Source: an uncultured beta proteobacterium
GTDB taxonomy: Bacteria > Pseudomonadota > Gammaproteobacteria > Burkholderiales > Burkholderiaceae
DNA length: 34,449 bases
Assembly (NCBI GenBank): GCA_903837335.1
Contig: CAILUH010000218.1
Location: 1-34,449 of the forward strand
Reading direction: 5' to 3'
Of this stretch, positions 2,691 through 14,508 are shown one piece after another; the first letter of the stretch is position 1; each line of letters begins with the position of its first letter. The position numbers and the translations under genes are program-made. The notes below the pieces were generated by a model. That model was given only the letters and a program-made list of their open reading frames with translations, ran no database searches and was not told the DNA's origin.

Positions 2691-2696
2691 TATAAT
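2691..2696 (+). promoter_or_regulatory. candidate sigma70 -10 element (TATAAT)
   Basis: Perfect TATAAT hexamer in the divergent intergenic region upstream of the 2780 gene; no convincing -35. Confidence 0.4.
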
Positions 2697-2712
2697 CCCA
2701 CAATTATGTAGT

Positions 2713-2727
2713 TGATAATTGTTCTCA
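2713..2727 (+). promoter_or_regulatory. putative Fur box (TGATAATTGTTCTCA)
   Basis: Matches 12 of 15 positions of the 7-1-7 Fur model TGATAATnATTATCA (spacer ignored it is 12 of 14); lies just downstream of the TATAAT and upstream of the flavinylation operon. Confidence 0.55.
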
Positions 2728-2779
2728 TTTAGAATTTCTCCTGACGCAACAACGCTATTTCAGCTTTAACAAAGGAGAA

Positions 2780-3697
2780 ATGATGGCGGTAAGGGACCAA
2801 TTTAATGCATTGCACCCAAGAAAGTGTCTATTTATGGGTCTGCTTGTGCTGAGTAGTTTAGTAAACGCAGGTGAAGGCTTATTTGGGTGGATTTATACCC
2901 TCGATTTACAGCCCAAAGGCAGCCTTGAATTTGAGCAACGACTCCAACTCACTTCAGGTCAGGCTAATGGTAAATACGATTTTTGGTATTCGCGTTCTGA
3001 GCTTGAATACGGCCTAAGGGATGATATTCAAGTTGCAGCTTATCTCAACGCCTATTCAGTTGACGCTGCACAAAATTATATTAATCCAGAGGTTTGCAGT
3101 GCTCCTTCATGTACCTCTGGTTATGGCGTGCCAGATAGCGCCAATGAATTCGATGGCTATAGAAAAATGGGTTTAGACGGAGGTTCGCTAGAAGGTATTT
3201 GGCGTATTACTAACCCAGTTACCGAGCCCATTGGCATCGGTATTTATTTGGAGCCTACTTTAGGTAAATTAAAAAATGCTTTCGAGTCGCGCCTGTTAGT
3301 CCAATCTAATTTTATTGATGATCGATTAATTTTGGCAGGTAATCTCGTCTTAGAAAATGAGCAACTGAAATCGACTGGCGCAACCATTCCAGAATCCCTG
3401 ATTGATATTTTGCTGGGCGCTAGTTATCGTTTTGCCCCAAAATGGTCTGGTGGCATCGAGTATCGTTATCACACCGACTACAACAGTTATTTTTGGCAAA
3501 ACCAAGTACAAACCGCCAACTTTATTGGCCCTAATTTGCACTATGCCGATCAGCATTGGTGGGCAACGCTCGCGTGGCGCTACCAACTAGATGGGCAATG
3601 CATGGGCGAAGGTACTGCTGAGTGTTCGGGAGGTAATGTCTGGGATAGCCATGGCAAAAATGAAATAATCGCCAAAATTGGTTTTCCTTTCGGCTAA
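2780..3697 (+). CDS. predicted exported outer-membrane beta-barrel-like protein (DUF6662-like)
   Basis: Signal-peptide-like N-terminus, alternating amphipathic segments rich in aromatics (YDFWYSRSELEYGL, GGIEYRYHTDYNSYFW); SD AAAGGAG just upstream. Confidence 0.65.
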   Translation: MMAVRDQFNALHPRKCLFMGLLVLSSLVNAGEGLFGWIYTLDLQPKGSLEFEQRLQLTSGQANGKYDFWYSRSELEYGLRDDIQVAAYLNAYSVDAAQNYINPEVCSAPSCTSGYGVPDSANEFDGYRKMGLDGGSLEGIWRITNPVTEPIGIGIYLEPTLGKLKNAFESRLLVQSNFIDDRLILAGNLVLENEQLKSTGATIPESLIDILLGASYRFAPKWSGGIEYRYHTDYNSYFWQNQVQTANFIGPNLHYADQHWWATLAWRYQLDGQCMGEGTAECSGGNVWDSHGKNEIIAKIGFPFG

Positions 3698-3705
3698 AAA
3701 ACCAG

Positions 3706-4245
3706 ATGCTTTGGAAACCGAGTTCAATTGTATTTTTAGCGGGAGCTAGTGCTATCAGTAGCTCTTGCCTCGCCCATGCCAGGATCTATATTTCCGTAGA
3801 CCAGGCGCAAAAAATATTATTTCCGGGTAGCCAATTTACTTTGCAGCCAACATTAATTGATCAAGCCTTACAGGCTAGCTTGAAAAAAGTCTCCGGTGTT
3901 CATTACCCCTTTCGGGGTGAGTATATATGGCGCGATCAAGCCGGTAACTACCTCGTCATTGATGAAGTCGTAGGTAAACATGAAATGATTCGCTACGCCG
4001 TTGGTATTGCTGCTGCTGGCACGATTCAAGGGATTGAAATTTTAGAATATCGTGAATCCTACGGCTATGAGGTGGCTGAGCAGCAGTGGCGTCAACAATT
4101 TGTTGGTAAAACCGCGCATGATCCACTCAAACTGAATCGCGATATCCAAAATATATCTGGGGCCACCCTTTCAAGCAAGCACATTACCGATGGTGTTAAA
4201 CGGGTCATGCACTTTTATCAAGTTGCCTTAAAGAACGCCAAGTAA
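3706..4245 (+). CDS. exported FMN-binding domain protein with covalent flavinylation motif
   Basis: Signal peptide; C-terminal NISGATLSSKHITDGV matches the [S/T]GAT flavinylation core of NqrC/RnfG-type FMN_bind domains; directly followed by apbE. Confidence 0.85.
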   Translation: MLWKPSSIVFLAGASAISSSCLAHARIYISVDQAQKILFPGSQFTLQPTLIDQALQASLKKVSGVHYPFRGEYIWRDQAGNYLVIDEVVGKHEMIRYAVGIAAAGTIQGIEILEYRESYGYEVAEQQWRQQFVGKTAHDPLKLNRDIQNISGATLSSKHITDGVKRVMHFYQVALKNAK

Positions 4246-5136
4246 ATGCAGGTAAATCAATGGCGCAGCTTAATGCGTTGCAAACCATTACTTGGTACCT
4301 ATGTGGAAATCACTGCACATACCGATGGTGACTATCCATTAGCGTACCGGGATCTTACATATTGCATTGAAAAGGCCTTCTCTACTATTCAAGATCTGCA
4401 CCATAGATTTAATTTCTACGCTGAAAATAGTGAGTTATCTCATCTGAACCGTTTGGCGCATTTGGGTCCATTGGCAATTTCACCCCAATTAAAAGCAATT
4501 TTATTGATTGCCAGCGAAATGCATTGCCACTCAGAAGGATTATTTAATTGTGGTATTGGTCAGTGCACTCTGAGGCTAGCAAAAGATCAGGTTCGCTTTG
4601 GGGATCTAGCCGACCTACAATTTCTAGCGGACGATCATGTCTATGCAATCCGCCCTTTATGTCTCAATCTCGGCGGCATAGCCAAAGGTTATGCGGTTGA
4701 TTGTGCAGTAGACATACTACTTAAACAGGGTGTAGCCGCAGGATGCGTTAATGCTGGTGGAGATCTGCGCGTATTTGGGCATCAAACTCAAAAAATTCAT
4801 CTGCGTATGCCACATCAATGTCACACCCTCATCGAGTTGGGCGTATTACAAAATGGGGCAGTTGCTAGCTCAGCCAATTATTTTTATAGCCCTACTTCTA
4901 CCGCCAACTTAGGTCAGAGAATCATTCATCCTCAACAACAGTTACCTAGCAACTCTCCGCACTCGTACTCGGTCATTGCGCCTCAATGTGTACATGCTGA
5001 TGCCTTAACTAAAGTTTTGGCCCTTTCACAGCAAATTGTTCATCCTTGCTTTGAGCGTTATGGCGCTAAACCATTTATTTTTTATCACGACGCAAATGAC
5101 ATCACTAACGCCACCCTCAAGAAGATCCGGCACTAA
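4246..5136 (+). CDS. apbE: FAD:protein FMN transferase
   Basis: MRCKPLLGTYVEITAHT, NLGGIAKGYAVDCAVDILLKQGVAAGCVNAGGDLRVFG and HADALTKVLAL motifs of ApbE; ATG follows the previous stop directly. Confidence 0.93.
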   Translation: MQVNQWRSLMRCKPLLGTYVEITAHTDGDYPLAYRDLTYCIEKAFSTIQDLHHRFNFYAENSELSHLNRLAHLGPLAISPQLKAILLIASEMHCHSEGLFNCGIGQCTLRLAKDQVRFGDLADLQFLADDHVYAIRPLCLNLGGIAKGYAVDCAVDILLKQGVAAGCVNAGGDLRVFGHQTQKIHLRMPHQCHTLIELGVLQNGAVASSANYFYSPTSTANLGQRIIHPQQQLPSNSPHSYSVIAPQCVHADALTKVLALSQQIVHPCFERYGAKPFIFYHDANDITNATLKKIRH

Positions 5137-5140
5137 GGTC

Positions 5141-5572
5141 ATGCCAACTTGGCAAAGGTACCTCAGTTATCCGAGCTTTTGTATTTGTATGGGTAGCGGT
5201 CTTCTCTACCTCGTTATTCAAGAATGGGCCAATGAGTTCAATTTTTTAGTCAATCGCTGGATATTGGTGATGCATGGCGTATCTGCGATGGTTATCGCCA
5301 TCATTTTCGGTGCTGCACTTCCCATCCATATCCGTATTGGACTGCATTTAAATAAAAATATTCTCAGCGGCCTTAGCCTTACCGCTGTCTTACTCGTTTT
5401 AATGATCTCAGGGCAATTACTGTATTACGGCAGTGGTGATAGCCGTGAATGGATTATTACGGCGCATTGGGTGGTCGGCGTTTTAAGCATTACCATCGCC
5501 TACTGTCATATTGTGCTGCGATCAGACCGAAAAATGGCCCTCTTTAAGCAGGCGGATGATCCTCGGGATTAA
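5141..5572 (+). CDS. four-TM membrane protein, probable diheme cytochrome b-like electron carrier
   Basis: MPTWQRYLSYPSFCICMGSGLLYLV...; His pairs in TM2 (MHG...PIH) and TM4 (AHW...YCH). Start at 5141 (4 nt after the apbE stop) preferred over the track start at 5036, which overlaps apbE. Confidence 0.65.
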   Translation: MPTWQRYLSYPSFCICMGSGLLYLVIQEWANEFNFLVNRWILVMHGVSAMVIAIIFGAALPIHIRIGLHLNKNILSGLSLTAVLLVLMISGQLLYYGSGDSREWIITAHWVVGVLSITIAYCHIVLRSDRKMALFKQADDPRD

Positions 5573-6141: not shown

Positions 6142-7158
6142 TTACGGTGCATCTTTGATGCCATTTTCGATCACAAACTTACCCCATAGCGCAATCTGTT
6201 TACCAATCCAATCTTTAGTGGCTTCGGGTCCGCCAGACACAATATCAATACCTTGAGCGCGCAATTTATCAGCGACTGCCGGGCTTTTCAGCGCTTTAGT
6301 AATAGCTTGATTCATTGCATTCACAATCGCGGGTGGCGTTTTGGCCGGTGCCAATACCGCCCACCAAGCAGGCGCATTAAATCCAGGGAAGCCACTTTCT
6401 GCAATCGTGGGGACTTTCGGTAATTCGGCGGTACGTTTCGTAGTAGTCACTGCCAAAGGAATAACGCCGCCACTATCGATATGCGGCTTGACTAAGAACA
6501 CCGAACCTATCGCGAGGGGAACTTGTCCACCCAGAATATCTTGCATCAAAGGTCCGCCGCCCCGATAAGGCACATGAACCCAATCAAAGCCAGCAGTTTT
6601 AGCCAAACGCGCAATCGCTAAGTGCCCTAAGCTACCCACACCAATTGAGCCATAGCTAAATTTTTTCTTGGCTTTCGATTCTTCCACTAATTGCTGAAAA
6701 GTTTTAATGCCTGAGTTTTTACTAGCCACTAAGACCATAGCTGAAGTACCGATTAAAGTAACCGGTGCAATATCAGTGATCGTGTCATAGGGCAATTTAT
6801 CTTTGATACTTGGATTTACGCCATGGGTATCAAAAACAACCGCAAAGGTATATCCATCAGGGTCTGAACGCACCATCGCGCCAGTACCAATTACGCCCGA
6901 AGCGCCACCAATATTTTCCACGATCACATTTTGTTTGAGTTCGGCCTGAATCGCTGGCGCCAAAATACGGGCTACTTGGTCAACCGACCCTCCCGGAGGA
7001 AAAACTGCAATTAAGCGTACCGGTTTTTGCGTCGGCCAAGATCCTAAGCCAGCAGCATTAGGTCTAGTCTGCCCATAGGCGTTAAGTCCTAATAAACTGG
7101 CTGCAAGGCCAAAAATAAAGCTCAAAAGGTAAGTTTTTGATTTGCTTCGGTAGCTCAT
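6142..7158 (-). CDS. Bug/TctC family substrate-binding protein
   Basis: WPTQKPVRLIAVFPPGGSVDQVARILAPAIQAELKQNVIVENIGGASGVIGTGAMVRSDPDGYT. Confidence 0.93.
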   Translation of the reverse strand: MSYRSKSKTYLLSFIFGLAASLLGLNAYGQTRPNAAGLGSWPTQKPVRLIAVFPPGGSVDQVARILAPAIQAELKQNVIVENIGGASGVIGTGAMVRSDPDGYTFAVVFDTHGVNPSIKDKLPYDTITDIAPVTLIGTSAMVLVASKNSGIKTFQQLVEESKAKKKFSYGSIGVGSLGHLAIARLAKTAGFDWVHVPYRGGGPLMQDILGGQVPLAIGSVFLVKPHIDSGGVIPLAVTTTKRTAELPKVPTIAESGFPGFNAPAWWAVLAPAKTPPAIVNAMNQAITKALKSPAVADKLRAQGIDIVSGGPEATKDWIGKQIALWGKFVIENGIKDAP

Positions 7159-8171: not shown

Positions 8172-9191
8172 TTGAGGGATAAATTGATGAACAAATTGAC
8201 TAATCGGCTTGCGCCGATTTTTTTATCCATACAAATAGGTGTGCTGGGCTGTTTTACTTTAGGTTGGTCCCTGACTGGACTAGCGCAGCCCGCCCCCTAC
8301 CCCAATAAATCCATTCGCTTATTAGCGCCAGTAGCTGCCGGTGGTGGCCTTGATAAAATTGCCCGCACTGTTGCAGAGCGTTTAGGGCATGCCTTAGGAC
8401 AAACCATCATTGTAGAAAATCTCACTGGTGGAGGCGGCATTATTGCCTCGCAAGCTACTGCTAAAGCTACTCCTGATGGCTATACCCTCATGATTGGGTA
8501 TGTCGGCACCCACGGAACTAACCCCGCAATACGTAAGCTACCTTATGATGCAATTAAAGATTTCACGCCAATTGGCATGATTGGTGCAACACCAAATGTG
8601 CTCGTCTTAAATATGGCGCTACCCGTCAAAAATGTCAAAGAATTTATTGCCTATGCTAAAAAAAATCCTGCTAAATTAAGTTATGGCTCATCTGGTCCTG
8701 GAACGCTCACACATTTATCCATGGAACAATTTAAAAATGAGTCGGGTATTTTTTTAGTGCACATTCCCTACCGCGGTATTGCACCTGCCTTTACTGATTT
8801 AATGGGCGGGCAAACCCAAGCGATGTTCCCCGCGCTTTTTGCCGCGCTGCCCTATATTGAAACCGATAAAATTCGTCCGCTTGCTGTAACCGGGCCAAAC
8901 CGTAATCCAGCTATTCCTAATGTACCCACTTTCAAAGAGCTCGGTTACCCAGGCTTTGATGGCCAGCAATGGTATGGCATTGTGGGGCCCGCCAAAATGC
9001 CCGAAGCGCTTGTCAGTAAATTAAATACGGAATTGAACAAGGTTTTAAGTAATCCCGACTTTGCGGCCAAGTTAACCAGCGAAGCATTGGTCGTCATGCC
9101 CATGTCGCCCAGCCAATTTGGACGTTATATGGCGGACGATATCGCCCGCTGGACTAAAGTTGTCAAAGACCGAAAAATCGAAATCGAATAA
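8172..9191 (+). CDS. Bug/TctC family substrate-binding protein
   Basis: YPNKSIRLLAPVAAGGGLDKIARTVAERLGHALGQTIIVENLTGGGG...; track start is TTG, ATG at 8187 is equally plausible. Confidence 0.93.
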   Translation: MRDKLMNKLTNRLAPIFLSIQIGVLGCFTLGWSLTGLAQPAPYPNKSIRLLAPVAAGGGLDKIARTVAERLGHALGQTIIVENLTGGGGIIASQATAKATPDGYTLMIGYVGTHGTNPAIRKLPYDAIKDFTPIGMIGATPNVLVLNMALPVKNVKEFIAYAKKNPAKLSYGSSGPGTLTHLSMEQFKNESGIFLVHIPYRGIAPAFTDLMGGQTQAMFPALFAALPYIETDKIRPLAVTGPNRNPAIPNVPTFKELGYPGFDGQQWYGIVGPAKMPEALVSKLNTELNKVLSNPDFAAKLTSEALVVMPMSPSQFGRYMADDIARWTKVVKDRKIEIE

Positions 9192-9207: not shown

Positions 9208-10581
9208 ATGTCAAAAATCATTCAAGCCGCAGCCGATCTTAATGCCCCACCCGTTACCCAAATTCTGGCTGATTTTGTCGCCCAACATCCTAGTCGTGGC
9301 TGGACTCCTGAAGTCGAACATGAGGCGCATCGCACTTTTTTAAACTGGCTCGGCTGTGCGATTGGCGCAGCTCAACACGAAAGCGTCGCCACTTCTTTGG
9401 CAGCGATTCAAGAATTTCAACCTGCTCCCCAAGCTACTATTCTAGGTCGCAAAGAACGTGTTGATATGGCAGGAGCAGCGCTAATTAATGGAATTAGTTC
9501 GCATACGTTTGACTTTGATGACACCCATTTAAAAACGGTAATTCATCCTGCCGGTCCGGTAGCTTCTGCTATTTTGGCGCTAGGCGAACATATTAATACC
9601 AATGGGCGCAAGCTGATTGATGCGCTGGTTTTAGGAATTGATGTGGAATGTCGAATTGGTAATTGCATGTATCCTGATCACTACCATCGTGGTTGGCACA
9701 TCACGAGCTCAACTGGCATGTTAGGCGCAGCCGCAGCGAGTGCTCGCTTAATGGGCCTCAATGCCCAGCAAACTGCTATGGCACTAGGCATTGCTGCTTC
9801 GCAACCCATTGGCATGCGCGAACAATTTGGCACCATGACCAAACCGTTTCACCCCGGTGGAGCTGCGCGCGCAGGGCAACTCTCAGCCTTACTTGCAAAA
9901 CATGGCTTTACTGCTAGCAGCAAAGCGCTTGAGGCTGGTCGGGGTTATGTCCAGACCGTTTCAACGAAAGCCGATTGGTCTGAAATTGAGCGGGGTCTAG
10001 GCAAGGTATTTGAAATTTCCCTTAACACCTATAAACCCTTTGCATGCGGAATTGTGATTCATCCGAGCATCGATGCCTGTGTGCAACTCAAGGCACAAGG
10101 TGTGAAGCCAGAGGATGTAGAGCGCATTGAATTAAAAGTGCATCCCTTGGTCTTAGAGCTTACCGGCAAGAAAACCCCACAGCTCGGTCTCGAAGGTAAA
10201 TTTAGTGTCTATCATGGTTGCGCAGTTGGACTCATTTTTGGTCAAGCTGCTGAAAGTGAATATGCTGATGACATCGTTACCCGTGCCGATGTCGTAGCTT
10301 TGCGCGATAAAGTGCATGCCACCATCGATGCTACGATCAATGAGGCCGCTGTAGACGTTACTGCTTTCTTAAAAAATGGCCAACAAGTGCATGTATTTGT
10401 TGGGCATGCAATTGGTTCCGTTGAAAATCCTATGAGCGATGCTCAACTCGAAGCTAAATTTACTAGTTTGACCGAGCCAATTATTGGCAAAGAAAAAACC
10501 CAGCAATTGATTGCTGCGTTGTGGAGTCTAGGTAAAGCACCCGATTTAAACACCATCTTGCGCTTAAGTATTCCCGCGTAA
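9208..10581 (+). CDS. MmgE/PrpD family protein
   Basis: INGISSHTFDFDDTHLKTVIHPAGPVASAILALGE and FHPGGAARAGQLSALLAKHGFTA motifs; ATG at 9208 preferred over the 9118 extension into the Bug gene. Confidence 0.92.
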   Translation: MSKIIQAAADLNAPPVTQILADFVAQHPSRGWTPEVEHEAHRTFLNWLGCAIGAAQHESVATSLAAIQEFQPAPQATILGRKERVDMAGAALINGISSHTFDFDDTHLKTVIHPAGPVASAILALGEHINTNGRKLIDALVLGIDVECRIGNCMYPDHYHRGWHITSSTGMLGAAAASARLMGLNAQQTAMALGIAASQPIGMREQFGTMTKPFHPGGAARAGQLSALLAKHGFTASSKALEAGRGYVQTVSTKADWSEIERGLGKVFEISLNTYKPFACGIVIHPSIDACVQLKAQGVKPEDVERIELKVHPLVLELTGKKTPQLGLEGKFSVYHGCAVGLIFGQAAESEYADDIVTRADVVALRDKVHATIDATINEAAVDVTAFLKNGQQVHVFVGHAIGSVENPMSDAQLEAKFTSLTEPIIGKEKTQQLIAALWSLGKAPDLNTILRLSIPA

Positions 10582-10594
10582 TGCTAGACCAAAC

Positions 10595-11575
10595 ATGCAG
10601 ATGAAAACGCGCCCTAATATCGTCATTCTTGGCGACTATGAACAAGCCATTCGCCGATTCTCAAATTGGGATGCCCTCGAACAACGTGCAAATCTCAGCT
10701 TCCATCATCAACCGCTGCGCGATGAGGCGCTCTTTGAGGTCATTAAAGATGCTGATGCAATTGCGATTGTGCGTGACCGTGCACCCTTAAATAAAGACCT
10801 CCTCAACCGCTTAAATAAACTCAAATTTTTGATGTTTACTGGCGAACGTAATGGCACTCTCGAAGCTGCTGCGCTAGTCGAGCGCAATATTCCCATGGCT
10901 TGCTCACCTGGTGGACCATCTAAAGAAACCACGACGGAATTAACTTGGACTTTAATTTTGGGCGCCGCCAAGCGTCTGCTGGAACAAAATCAGTTAATGG
11001 CGCAAGGCGGCTGGCGGGATCCACTATCGGTATTGCCGATGCTCAGTGGTGAGCGCCTCGGTATTATTGGTTTAGGTGCAATTGGCAGTCGGGTGGCTCG
11101 CGTCGGGAAAGCCTTTGGAATGGAGCTTGTAACCTGGAGTCCAAATATGAATGGAGCGCGCGCGGCAGCTGAAGATGCAAAATCTGTCAGTCTTGATGAG
11201 CTCCTCAGTACAGCCAAAGTTGTTAGCCTCCATTTAGTCGCATCACCTGCGACCAAGGGTTTAATTAATGCAGAAAAATTAGCGCTGATGCGTACCGATG
11301 CCATTCTTGTAAACACGTCGCGCTCCAGCTTAATTCAAATGCAAGCCTTACCTGCAGCTCTAGCCGCAGGTCATCCTGGTCAAGCAGCCATTGATGTATT
11401 TGATCTTGAGCCCTTACCTGCAGACGATCTTTTGCGTAAAACCCCGAACTTATTAGTTACCCCCCACTTAGGATTTATTGCCGAACCTATATTTGCCGCT
11501 TTTGCCGACGGCATCACGCAAACCTTAATGGCATGGCTCGATAACAAACCCCTACCGCATCCATTTAAGCCTTAA
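10595..11575 (+). CDS. D-2-hydroxyacid dehydrogenase family protein
   Basis: LGIIGLGAIGSRVARVGKAFGMELVTWSP nucleotide-binding motif; VVSLHLVASPATKGLINAEKLALMRTDAILVNTSRSSLI. Confidence 0.92.
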   Translation: MQMKTRPNIVILGDYEQAIRRFSNWDALEQRANLSFHHQPLRDEALFEVIKDADAIAIVRDRAPLNKDLLNRLNKLKFLMFTGERNGTLEAAALVERNIPMACSPGGPSKETTTELTWTLILGAAKRLLEQNQLMAQGGWRDPLSVLPMLSGERLGIIGLGAIGSRVARVGKAFGMELVTWSPNMNGARAAAEDAKSVSLDELLSTAKVVSLHLVASPATKGLINAEKLALMRTDAILVNTSRSSLIQMQALPAALAAGHPGQAAIDVFDLEPLPADDLLRKTPNLLVTPHLGFIAEPIFAAFADGITQTLMAWLDNKPLPHPFKP

Positions 11576-11576
11576 C

Positions 11577-12116
11577 TTGAAATCAGTCAGCCCCAAACAA
11601 CTATTTATTGGCTTTACCAAAATTGGCTTATCGGGCTTTGGGGGCGTTCTTCCATGGGCGCGACGGACCGTTGTTGAAAAAAATAAATGGTTAACTGCGC
11701 ATGAGTTCAATGCAATTTTAGGTATTTGTCAAATTGTGCCTGGGCCCAATATTATGAATTTAGCCGTCTGCATTGGCTCACGCTTTGCTGGTGTCAAGGG
11801 CGCATTTGCTGCAGTAGCAGGTTTAATGCTGGGCCCAATTAGTTTGGTACTGGTGTTAGCTGTCCTCTATGATCAATACAGCAGCCTCGCTGCAGTACAA
11901 GGGGTCTTGCGGGGAGTCTCTGCAGTTGGCGTCGGCTTAATAGCTGCAACTGGCTTCAAAATGATGCGTGATGAATTTCGCTATCCCCTAATGTTTATTG
12001 TGGTCGCATTCACGTTTGTCGCGGCAACGGTATTTCACTTAGCGCTTGGCTGGGTAGTAGTGATCGCCCTACCGCTGGGCTTGTGGCTCGCATGGCGCAA
12101 GGTGAAGCAACCATGA
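11577..12116 (+). CDS. chromate transporter family protein, first half-size subunit
   Basis: FIGFTKIGLSGFGGVLPWARR...WLTAHEFNAILGICQIVPGPNIMNLAVCIG, CHR domain; TTG start. Confidence 0.88.
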   Translation: MKSVSPKQLFIGFTKIGLSGFGGVLPWARRTVVEKNKWLTAHEFNAILGICQIVPGPNIMNLAVCIGSRFAGVKGAFAAVAGLMLGPISLVLVLAVLYDQYSSLAAVQGVLRGVSAVGVGLIAATGFKMMRDEFRYPLMFIVVAFTFVAATVFHLALGWVVVIALPLGLWLAWRKVKQP

Positions 12117-12634
12117 GCGCCCTTCTCGGCCTATTTCTTAAATTCTCGGCTTTTTCTTTAATCGCCTTTGGTGGTGTCAATGCGTTACTGCCGGTGCTCT
12201 ACGATATCTCAGTCAACCAAGAGCGTTGGATTGATGCCCAAACCTTTGCTAACTATTTTGCCATTGTGCAAGCGGCGCCGGGGCCTAACTTTATGACGGT
12301 GACCTTAATTGGTTGGCATGTCTATGGCGTATTGGGGGCCTTAGTAGCAACACTCGCTATTGCTTGGCCCTCTTCCATTCTCATTTTTTGGTTGCAACGC
12401 TATATTCTCAGCATGAAAAATGTGCAGCATCAACAAGCGATTCAGTATGCGGCGGCTGCCCTCGCAATTGGTTTAGTGCTTGCTTCTGCATGGCAAATAT
12501 CCTGGCAAATTAATCATGGGGTGATGGCTTATACAATTACCCTTGGGACGATTATCATCATGCTGCTAACTCGCTGGCACCCCTTATGGCTGATTTTGCT
12601 AGGCGCTCTTTGCGGTTTATTCGGTATTATTTAA
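12113..12634 (+). CDS. chromate transporter family protein, second half-size subunit
   Basis: LFLKFSAFSLIAFGGVNALLPVLY...FANYFAIVQAAPGPNFMTVTLIGW; ATG at 12113 overlaps the previous TGA (ATGA). Confidence 0.88.
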   Translation: MSALLGLFLKFSAFSLIAFGGVNALLPVLYDISVNQERWIDAQTFANYFAIVQAAPGPNFMTVTLIGWHVYGVLGALVATLAIAWPSSILIFWLQRYILSMKNVQHQQAIQYAAAALAIGLVLASAWQISWQINHGVMAYTITLGTIIIMLLTRWHPLWLILLGALCGLFGII

Positions 12635-12695
12635 TCTATTCTTATTTTTACCTGCAAGCAATTGCGCTTCCTACCTTCAAAACGCGGAGCATTAA

Positions 12696-13694
12696 ATGTC
12701 TCGACTAAAAAATTGGCTTTGGATTCGATTTGCCTTCATCGCGCTGGGCCTGATGAGTGCTGGCTTCAATATCACCCTCAGTCATGCGCAAGGAAGCTAC
12801 CCCAGTAAACCTATCAACTTCATCGTGCCTTATGGTGCAGGTGGTGGCGCAGATTCCCGTAGTCGTCAAATTGCCCTCCGCATGAGTGCAATTTTGAAGC
12901 AAAGCATCATCGTTGAAAATAAAGCTGGGGCAGGCGGTAATATTGGCACCGAATTTATTGCGCGTGCGGCCCCCGATGGTTACACCATTGGGATGGGCAA
13001 TTTTGCTCCGCTTGCAGTCAATAAAATGTTATTTGGTAATTTACGCTACGATCCTGAGACAGATCTCGTGCCGATTGTTTTAATCGAAAAAGGACCTTTG
13101 GTTTTAGTAGTTAATCCTAAATCATCTTATAAAACGGTACAAGATATTGTGACAGCTGCAAAAGCAAAGCCCGATACTTTGACATTTTCTTCTGGCGGTA
13201 TTGGTGGAAGTCATCAACTGTCGGCCGAAGTATTTATGGATAGCGCTGGCATTACGATGGTTCATGTGCCCTATAAAAGTGGCTCCGCTGGTCTGACCGA
13301 TTTAATGGCAGGCAATGTTGACATGATGTTTGATCAAATGTATTCAGCGATGCCAAGTATTAAAGGCGATAAATTACGCCCCTTAGCTATTACCAGTAAA
13401 AAACGCTCTCCGCTCTTGCCCAATATCCCGAGCTTTACTGAGCTTGGTTACCCTAAAGTTGAAGTACTTAATTGGCAGGGTTTAGTTGCTCCTAAAGGTA
13501 CGCCTAAAGCGATCATTGATAAACTCAATGCAGCTGCAAATGAAGCTTTAAAGGATCCCCAATTTCGGGAACTCATGCTCTCTCAAGGTAACGAAATTGG
13601 CGGCGGCACACCTGCAGATTTTGCTGCGCTGATTAAATCTGAAGCAGCTAAGTGGAGTGCAGTTGTGAGGGCCCACAACATCAAGCCTGAATAA
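12696..13694 (+). CDS. Bug/TctC family substrate-binding protein
   Basis: YPSKPINFIVPYGAGGGADSRSRQIALRMSAILKQSIIVENKAGAGGNIGTEFIARAAPDGYT. Confidence 0.93.
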   Translation: MSRLKNWLWIRFAFIALGLMSAGFNITLSHAQGSYPSKPINFIVPYGAGGGADSRSRQIALRMSAILKQSIIVENKAGAGGNIGTEFIARAAPDGYTIGMGNFAPLAVNKMLFGNLRYDPETDLVPIVLIEKGPLVLVVNPKSSYKTVQDIVTAAKAKPDTLTFSSGGIGGSHQLSAEVFMDSAGITMVHVPYKSGSAGLTDLMAGNVDMMFDQMYSAMPSIKGDKLRPLAITSKKRSPLLPNIPSFTELGYPKVEVLNWQGLVAPKGTPKAIIDKLNAAANEALKDPQFRELMLSQGNEIGGGTPADFAALIKSEAAKWSAVVRAHNIKPE

Positions 13695-13728
13695 CTTGAT
13701 AACTTACTTGGGCCAAGAATGGCAAGCC

Positions 13729-14508
13729 CTATTGAATCATGAAGCTCAACATACTAATTGAGCTCATTTCAATGCCATCGGTAATGACGCTAACTGTTTC
13801 ACCTGGCTGCTGTAAAGCTAGCGGATAAAGTGCCGGCCAATAATGCTCAGGCGTAGGAACTGCTAAGTGGGCAACCTCACCAAGACTCTCGTAGTCAATT
13901 AACGTCTGATGTTGGTTTGATTGCATCGCCTGCAAAAAGAAATCATTAAACTCCAGCGCCCAAGCATAGGGGGTGGCGTCTTCCTGCCAATGAATGCGAC
14001 GTAAGTTATGCACCACATTGCCACTTGCCAGAATTAAGATATTTTCTGCCCGCAAAGGTGCTAATTGACGCGCCAAATCATAATGTCCTTGGGCATCTAA
14101 GCTGCCATTTAAACTCATTTGTACAACTGGTACATCTGCAGCAGGATAGAGATAGCGTAGCACCGACCAAGCACCATGATCGATGCCCCATTCATTTTCT
14201 TCTAAAACGACTTCTGTCTCTGGTGCTAATAAGGTTTTTACCCGCTGTGCCAATTGAGGGCTACCTGGTGCCGGATATTGCAGTGAAAATAAGGTTTCTG
14301 GAAAACCCCCAAAATCATGAATTGTTTGAGGTATTTGCATTGCCGTAGCCCAAACCCCGCGGGTTAACCAATGGGCTGAAATAACTAAAATAGCAGTGGG
14401 TCGTTTGAGGTTTTTGCCTAAGTCTGCCCAGGCCGCAGTGTATCGATTAGCCTCAAGCGCATACATGGGGCTGCCATGGCCAAGAAAAACGAGTGGTTGT
14501 AACTGAAT
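13729..14508 (-). CDS. class III extradiol ring-cleavage dioxygenase (4,5-DOPA dioxygenase/YgiD-like); start codon uncertain
   Basis: VISAHWLTRG, HDFGGFPETLFSLQYPAPGSPQLA, EWGIDHGAWSVLRYLYP, LASGNVVHNLR. In-frame codons upstream of the first ATG (14466) encode QLQPLVFLGHGSPM, the conserved family N-terminus; 14508 assumes an ATT start. Confidence 0.85.
   Translation of the reverse strand: MQLQPLVFLGHGSPMYALEANRYTAAWADLGKNLKRPTAILVISAHWLTRGVWATAMQIPQTIHDFGGFPETLFSLQYPAPGSPQLAQRVKTLLAPETEVVLEENEWGIDHGAWSVLRYLYPAADVPVVQMSLNGSLDAQGHYDLARQLAPLRAENILILASGNVVHNLRRIHWQEDATPYAWALEFNDFFLQAMQSNQHQTLIDYESLGEVAHLAVPTPEHYWPALYPLALQQPGETVSVITDGIEMSSISMLSFMIQ

Follow-up and report, generated by a model that had tools for sequence, protein, structure and literature searches.

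Relation to described flavinylation systems

Flavinylation motifs of the [S/T]GA[S/T]-like kind receive their FMN from the enzyme ApbE; flavinylation gene clusters have been tied to iron reduction, and in Shewanella and Caulobacter those of the PepSY type are under Fur repression (PMC8238504). A table of genes responding to iron limitation or to a fur mutation in Caulobacter lists DUF2271, DUF4198 and ApbE genes with changes of 17-51 fold (PMC3751524). These PepSY-like/DUF2271/DUF4198/ApbE clusters carry out ApbE-dependent electron transfer in the cell envelope, are repressed by Fur and are proposed to serve iron reduction or assimilation, and the operon described here appears, by its sequence, to be similar in all of these respects. 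The components differ, however, as the operon encodes a small FMN_bind carrier, a four-helix membrane component with four histidines and a DUF6662 barrel. No PepSY (PF03929/PF16357), DUF2271 or DUF4198 domain was found in the four operon proteins, which places them outside the PepSY system.

Two further described systems share single components with the operon. The RnfG and NqrC subunits have in common with its FMN-binding protein an FMN_bind domain and a flavinylation motif, and a PDB match of this protein to RnfG was observed. However, it scores only 33.9 bits against RnfG, where the cut-off is 102, and is far under the curated cut-offs of both RnfG and NqrC; no further Rnf or Nqr subunit is encoded in the operon, and the protein was not assigned to either complex. 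The DUF4405 cytochromes linked to ApbE have four conserved histidines in membrane helices and are encoded beside apbE, as is the fourth protein of the operon, and a DUF4405 protein was found in other work to bind heme b (PMC11334425). These cytochromes are described with six helices whereas the operon protein has four, lies below the Pfam cut-off and is proposed to bind heme. In the literature searched, no report of the operon or of its response to iron was found, nor any paper on DUF6662. Repression of flavinylation genes by Fur is already known; the gene set found here is new as far as our searches show.

Organization of the locus

The window, i.e., the whole stretch of 34,449 nucleotides that was analyzed, is a contig (C218) of a 2.0-Mb assembly of 295 contigs that is 96.7% complete. 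Its relatives bear the names of Polynucleobacter species and of uncultured Burkholderiaceae; Polynucleobacter is a common freshwater genus. The four plus-strand genes of the operon are tightly packed in the order DUF6662, FMN-binding protein, apbE and four-helix protein (Table 1), with a spacing of 8 bp between the first two. An intergenic gap of 142 bp, which holds both the TATAAT hexamer and the Fur box, separates the operon from a divergent pair of CoA-transferase genes. No RNA matches were found with Rfam in the window and in seven orthologous loci. Elsewhere in the window, four solute-binding proteins judged by eye to be Bug/TctC-like are encoded at 234-1256 and 6142-7158 on the minus strand and at 8172-9191 and 12696-13694 on the plus strand, and an adjacent gene pair at 11577-12634 resembles, again by eye, both halves of a chromate transporter.

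Table 1. Features of the operon and its upstream region in the window.
Feature	Positions	Strand	Remarks
CoA-transferase gene pair	1266-2637	minus	Divergent neighbour of the operon
TATAAT, candidate -10 element	2691-2696	plus	Weakly supported
51-bp block	2692-2742		No differences between the window and two sister genomes; operator/promoter footprint by phylogenetic comparison
Fur box, 19-bp form GTTGATAATTGTTCTCATT	2711-2729		Core 15-mer TGATAATTGTTCTCA at 2713-2727
DUF6662 gene	2780-3697	plus	Pfam DUF6662, E 2.5e-11
FMN-binding (RnfG-like) periplasmic protein gene	3706-4245	plus	Pfam FMN_bind, E 7.5e-13
apbE, FAD:protein FMN transferase gene	4246-5136	plus	Pfam ApbE, E 2.8e-35
Four-helix membrane protein gene, four conserved histidines	5138-5572	plus	Alignment and AF2 model

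The Fur box and its scores

Both the 15-mer and the TATAAT hexamer that had been pointed out in the preliminary description were found in the window where it had placed them, and its count of five matches out of seven between the half-site GTTCTCA and ATTATCA is correct. Compared with ATTCTCA, which is the usual form of this half-site in the genus, six of the seven positions match. The site forms a 7-1-7 inverted repeat with two mismatches to TGATAATnATTATCA and likewise two to TGAGAATnATTCTCA. Taken alone, the match of the 15-mer is at the level of chance. Three sites with up to three mismatches to the Fur consensus TGATAATNATTATCA were found in the window where 2.1 are expected, and the enrichment in the genome is mild (21 sites with up to two mismatches against 14 for a reversed control pattern).

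A 19-bp Fur matrix was built from 46 sites upstream of Polynucleobacter operons; neither the window nor the two relatives nearest to it contributed a site. Scoring with a Fur matrix had been proposed earlier as a check, and with this one the window site reached 20.8 bits, while the runner-up in the 34 kb reached 4.4 bits and the best score in 40 shuffled windows was 17.3 bits. The 51-bp block around the site is unchanged in the sister genome G050 although the FMN-binding protein of that genome is just 81% identical.

A single Fur-family gene is present in the genome (one PF01475 match). Its product is identified as a true Fur by its score of 167.5 against the cut-off of 146 for the NCBIfam ferric iron uptake regulator and by its matches to solved Fur proteins. 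Tandem Fur boxes scoring 27.3 and 24.1 bits were found upstream of feoAB in the same genome and a further box (24.1 bits) upstream of an ABC solute-binding protein gene on contig C53. Among the retrieved pattern-matched sites, these three outscore the window site, an order that is not a full ranking of the genome because the pattern-matched sites alone were scored. The C53 gene was considered as a possible FbpA; this identity was not retained, NCBIfam giving it no firm name, and it is referred to as a solute-binding protein only. The tandem boxes (locus L086, C6:25602-25647) separate feoAB from a divergently oriented OprB-family porin gene, which may therefore be iron-regulated too.

Conservation upstream of orthologous operons

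The FMN-binding gene of the operon is present in 49 of the 61 genomes of the genus searched, and in nearly all copies of the operon DUF6662 is preceded by one or two sequences that closely match TGAGAATnATTCTCA. Cultured species such as P. yangtzensis and P. sphagniphilus are among those with the operon. With a fixed consensus and no trained matrix, a Fur box differing at one position at most was found in the 200 bp preceding the first gene in 84 of 110 non-redundant orthologous loci, compared with 2 of 4558 control windows taken from the same loci. The preliminary description had named absence of the motif in front of orthologous operons as evidence against its reading; the motif is conserved there.

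Homologous operons were retrieved with the FMN-binding protein from Betaproteobacteria, Acinetobacter, Alphaproteobacteria and Verrucomicrobia. Boxes were observed upstream of those in Perlucidibaca, Sheuella, Methylotenera, Aquabacterium, Polaromonas, two Acinetobacter and a Sterolibacteriaceae genome, and a box of 22.4 bits precedes a peroxidase-porin-FMN_bind-apbE-membrane protein cluster in Ideonella (L254). No box was found upstream of the operon in Variovorax (L184), in a Beijerinckiaceae genome (L182) and in most Verrucomicrobia loci, so that control by Fur appears to be common and not universal. A box is likewise absent upstream of the operon in an Azonexaceae genome (L170).

From these comparisons the window site (2711-2729) is very probably a Fur operator. 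As the box recurs in front of this group of genes in both related and distant bacteria, a lack of iron probably induces the little-described electron-transfer system that the operon encodes. The Fur box and the iron control claimed in the preliminary description are thus strongly backed by comparison, while the ferric reductase that it suggested is plausible and is what we, too, infer from the evidence below.

Proteins encoded by the operon

The FMN-binding protein carries the flavinylation motif SGAT, of which G, A and T are invariant in all 12 rows of the alignment. The operon therefore encodes both ApbE and, as its putative substrate, an FMN_bind protein whose motif is [S/T]GA[S/T]-like, which is the gene content of a flavinylation system. 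In the four-helix protein, H46, H64 and H110 are invariant and H124 nearly so, and four helices are predicted by AF2 (pLDDT 86). It shares with DUF4405 the four conserved histidines in membrane helices, but its Pfam score is 15.7 bits against a cut-off of 26.7. Weak matches to DUF4405 were found for seven of 13 members and matches to cytochrome b561 for four, and nothing significant emerged when the PDB was searched with the fold of this protein. We propose that this protein is a b-type cytochrome giving electrons to the flavoprotein.

The first protein of the operon scores 44 bits against the Pfam DUF6662 cut-off of 27 and has a signal peptide, as judged by eye. Its AF2 model (pLDDT 87.5) is a 12-strand outer-membrane beta barrel. 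Foldseek with this model gave FapF as the best match and a COG4313 channel as another (E 1e-9 to 1e-7). The predicted barrel is thus similar to these outer-membrane channels (PDB 5o65 and 4rl8), although sequence identity to them is only 8-10%. Translation of the DUF6662 gene more likely begins at its second ATG (2783) because the sister genome G050 has ATA at the first.

Iron-related genes in the genus and near homologous operons

The operon and feoB tend to occur together in the genus: 36 genomes have both, 13 the operon only, one feoB only and 11 neither (Fisher p 5e-5, uncorrected for phylogeny). Among genomes that are at least 90% complete, the corresponding numbers are 34, 8, 1 and 9. 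Another Fe(II) importer would be needed in the 13 members of the genus with no detected feoB beside their operon, eight of which belong to the more complete genomes.

In the Azonexaceae genome mentioned above, FeoB is encoded directly downstream of the operon. In locus L245, a cluster of imelysin, di-haem oxidoreductase (DHOR), imelysin and DUF1513 genes (9547-14425) with a Fur box of its own lies directly upstream of the DUF6662 flavinylation operon. Other gene clusters differ in content. A di-haem cytochrome c peroxidase gene precedes the FMN_bind, apbE and membrane protein genes in L248 (4732-7311) and L254 (3357-5938), and both clusters have a different porin-like gene in place of DUF6662. 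The occurrence of this peroxidase gene in the clusters of some relatives suggests other electron acceptors. Single iron-related neighbours were also noted, namely a gene for heme oxygenase close to the operon in Variovorax (L184, 8237-8842) and a VIT-family gene near the operon of Acinetobacter piscicola (L192, 2824-3525).

Proposed function and alternative explanations

The FMN motif, the four histidines and the barrel model together suggest a path of electrons from the membrane pool over heme b and the flavoprotein to a substrate able to cross the outer membrane. Iron is proposed as this substrate on the basis of the control by Fur, the co-occurrence with feoB, the FeoB gene downstream of the Azonexaceae operon and the imelysin cluster adjoining the operon in L245, and published parallels likewise support a ferric reductase (PMC8238504). 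When iron is plentiful, Fe2+-Fur would occupy the site at 2711-2729 and block transcription of the operon, and iron shortage would lift this block. The four-histidine membrane protein, with its proposed heme b, would then draw electrons from the membrane pool, and ApbE would put FMN onto the periplasmic FMN-binding protein. Fe(III) or weak Fe(III) complexes may come in through the DUF6662 outer-membrane channel and be reduced by the reduced flavoprotein, and the resulting Fe(II) would pass to FeoB or another importer.

As far as gene content and context can tell, the electron-transfer system of the operon probably helps the cell to take up iron. That it does so as a reductive iron-assimilation chain is reasonably likely, and we would give about the same credence to the full statement, in which a Fur operator controls an envelope chain reducing ferric iron so that it can be taken up. 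It is a more tentative suggestion, and one somewhat short of likely, that DUF6662, FMN_bind, ApbE and the four-histidine protein make up an undescribed and widespread Fur-controlled module for reductive iron uptake with a minimal b-cytochrome, a flavinylated reductase and a dedicated channel. If this is true, small freshwater bacteria could use ferric iron with FeoB and without siderophores, and DUF6662 would gain a role. In P. asymbioticus, the iron uptake reported is ferrous only, as by FeoAB, and ferric iron in the medium was said to be of no use to it; in RNA-seq of this species, feoAB rose about 4-fold with C. danica (PMC6629928). A reductase module controlled by Fur would either explain how ferric iron comes to be used or contradict the statement that it is of no use.

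Two alternatives concern the box itself. A motif that arose by chance in front of an operon that is not iron-regulated would agree with the chance-level match of the 15-mer alone, but this is strongly contradicted by the conservation across orthologues and by the invariant 51-bp block and has a probability close to nil. The position of the box in a shared intergenic region would also allow it to belong to the divergent CoA-transferase genes and not to the flavinylation operon. This is hardly credible, as that neighbour is present in the closest relatives only and the box elsewhere stays with DUF6662; the CoA-transferase genes were rejected as its target because they are not a conserved neighbour.

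Other alternatives concern what the chain does. With the same Fur operator, it might serve periplasmic di-haem peroxidases or another oxidoreductase in protection against iron-linked oxidative stress, and not ferric reduction. The gene before the porin, FMN_bind, apbE and 4TM genes in L248 encodes a CCP_MauG peroxidase, the one in the Ideonella cluster is annotated as cytochrome c peroxidase and DHOR is present in L245, whereas the window operon and those Polynucleobacter operons that were inspected have no peroxidase gene, and the co-occurrence with feoB and the FeoB and imelysin neighbours indicate iron; we consider this function unlikely. Replacement of an iron-containing periplasmic carrier by a flavin carrier in order to spare iron, as when flavodoxin takes over from ferredoxin, has been raised for flavinylation in general (PMC8238504) and is compatible with control by Fur. 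It appears quite unlikely here, for the membrane protein keeps four histidines like those of b-type cytochromes and would itself need heme iron, and the co-conserved outer-membrane barrel would be left unexplained. Lastly, the chain, again under the same operator, might reduce siderophore- or heme-bound iron imported through TonB-dependent receptors. One such receptor is encoded near the Ideonella cluster, and receptors are present in 59 of the 61 genomes of the genus, a survey that does not discriminate. They do not track the operon, however, and one genome (G017) has the operon and feoB with no receptor detected, which makes this route distinctly improbable. The reading that we prefer is thus the reduction of ferric iron for uptake.

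Candidate promoter elements and the DUF6662-FMN_bind gap

In the clade of the window, a single box lies 14 bp 3' of the TATAAT. The hexamer itself is present as the preliminary description had it, but its role as a promoter is less certain: no recognizable -35 element was found for it, and the sister genome G050 has AATAAT at this position. The box is for these reasons better supported than the adjacent promoter. A different arrangement was observed in other Polynucleobacter: of 50 unique upstream regions, 35 have two boxes spaced 27-30 bp. A -10 hexamer, which is TATATT in 25 cases, follows the TTGA.A of the first box by 17-18 bp in 26 of these 35 regions. This placement suggests that the promoter likely lies inside the double operator in the two-box regions.

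Many Polynucleobacter operons (L069, L070, L071, L072, L074, L075, L078 and L080) have a gap of about 200 bp between DUF6662 and FMN_bind. No Fur box was found in this gap; it contains a conserved small open frame of about 58 codons that starts with MEIQNLL or MESQNLL.
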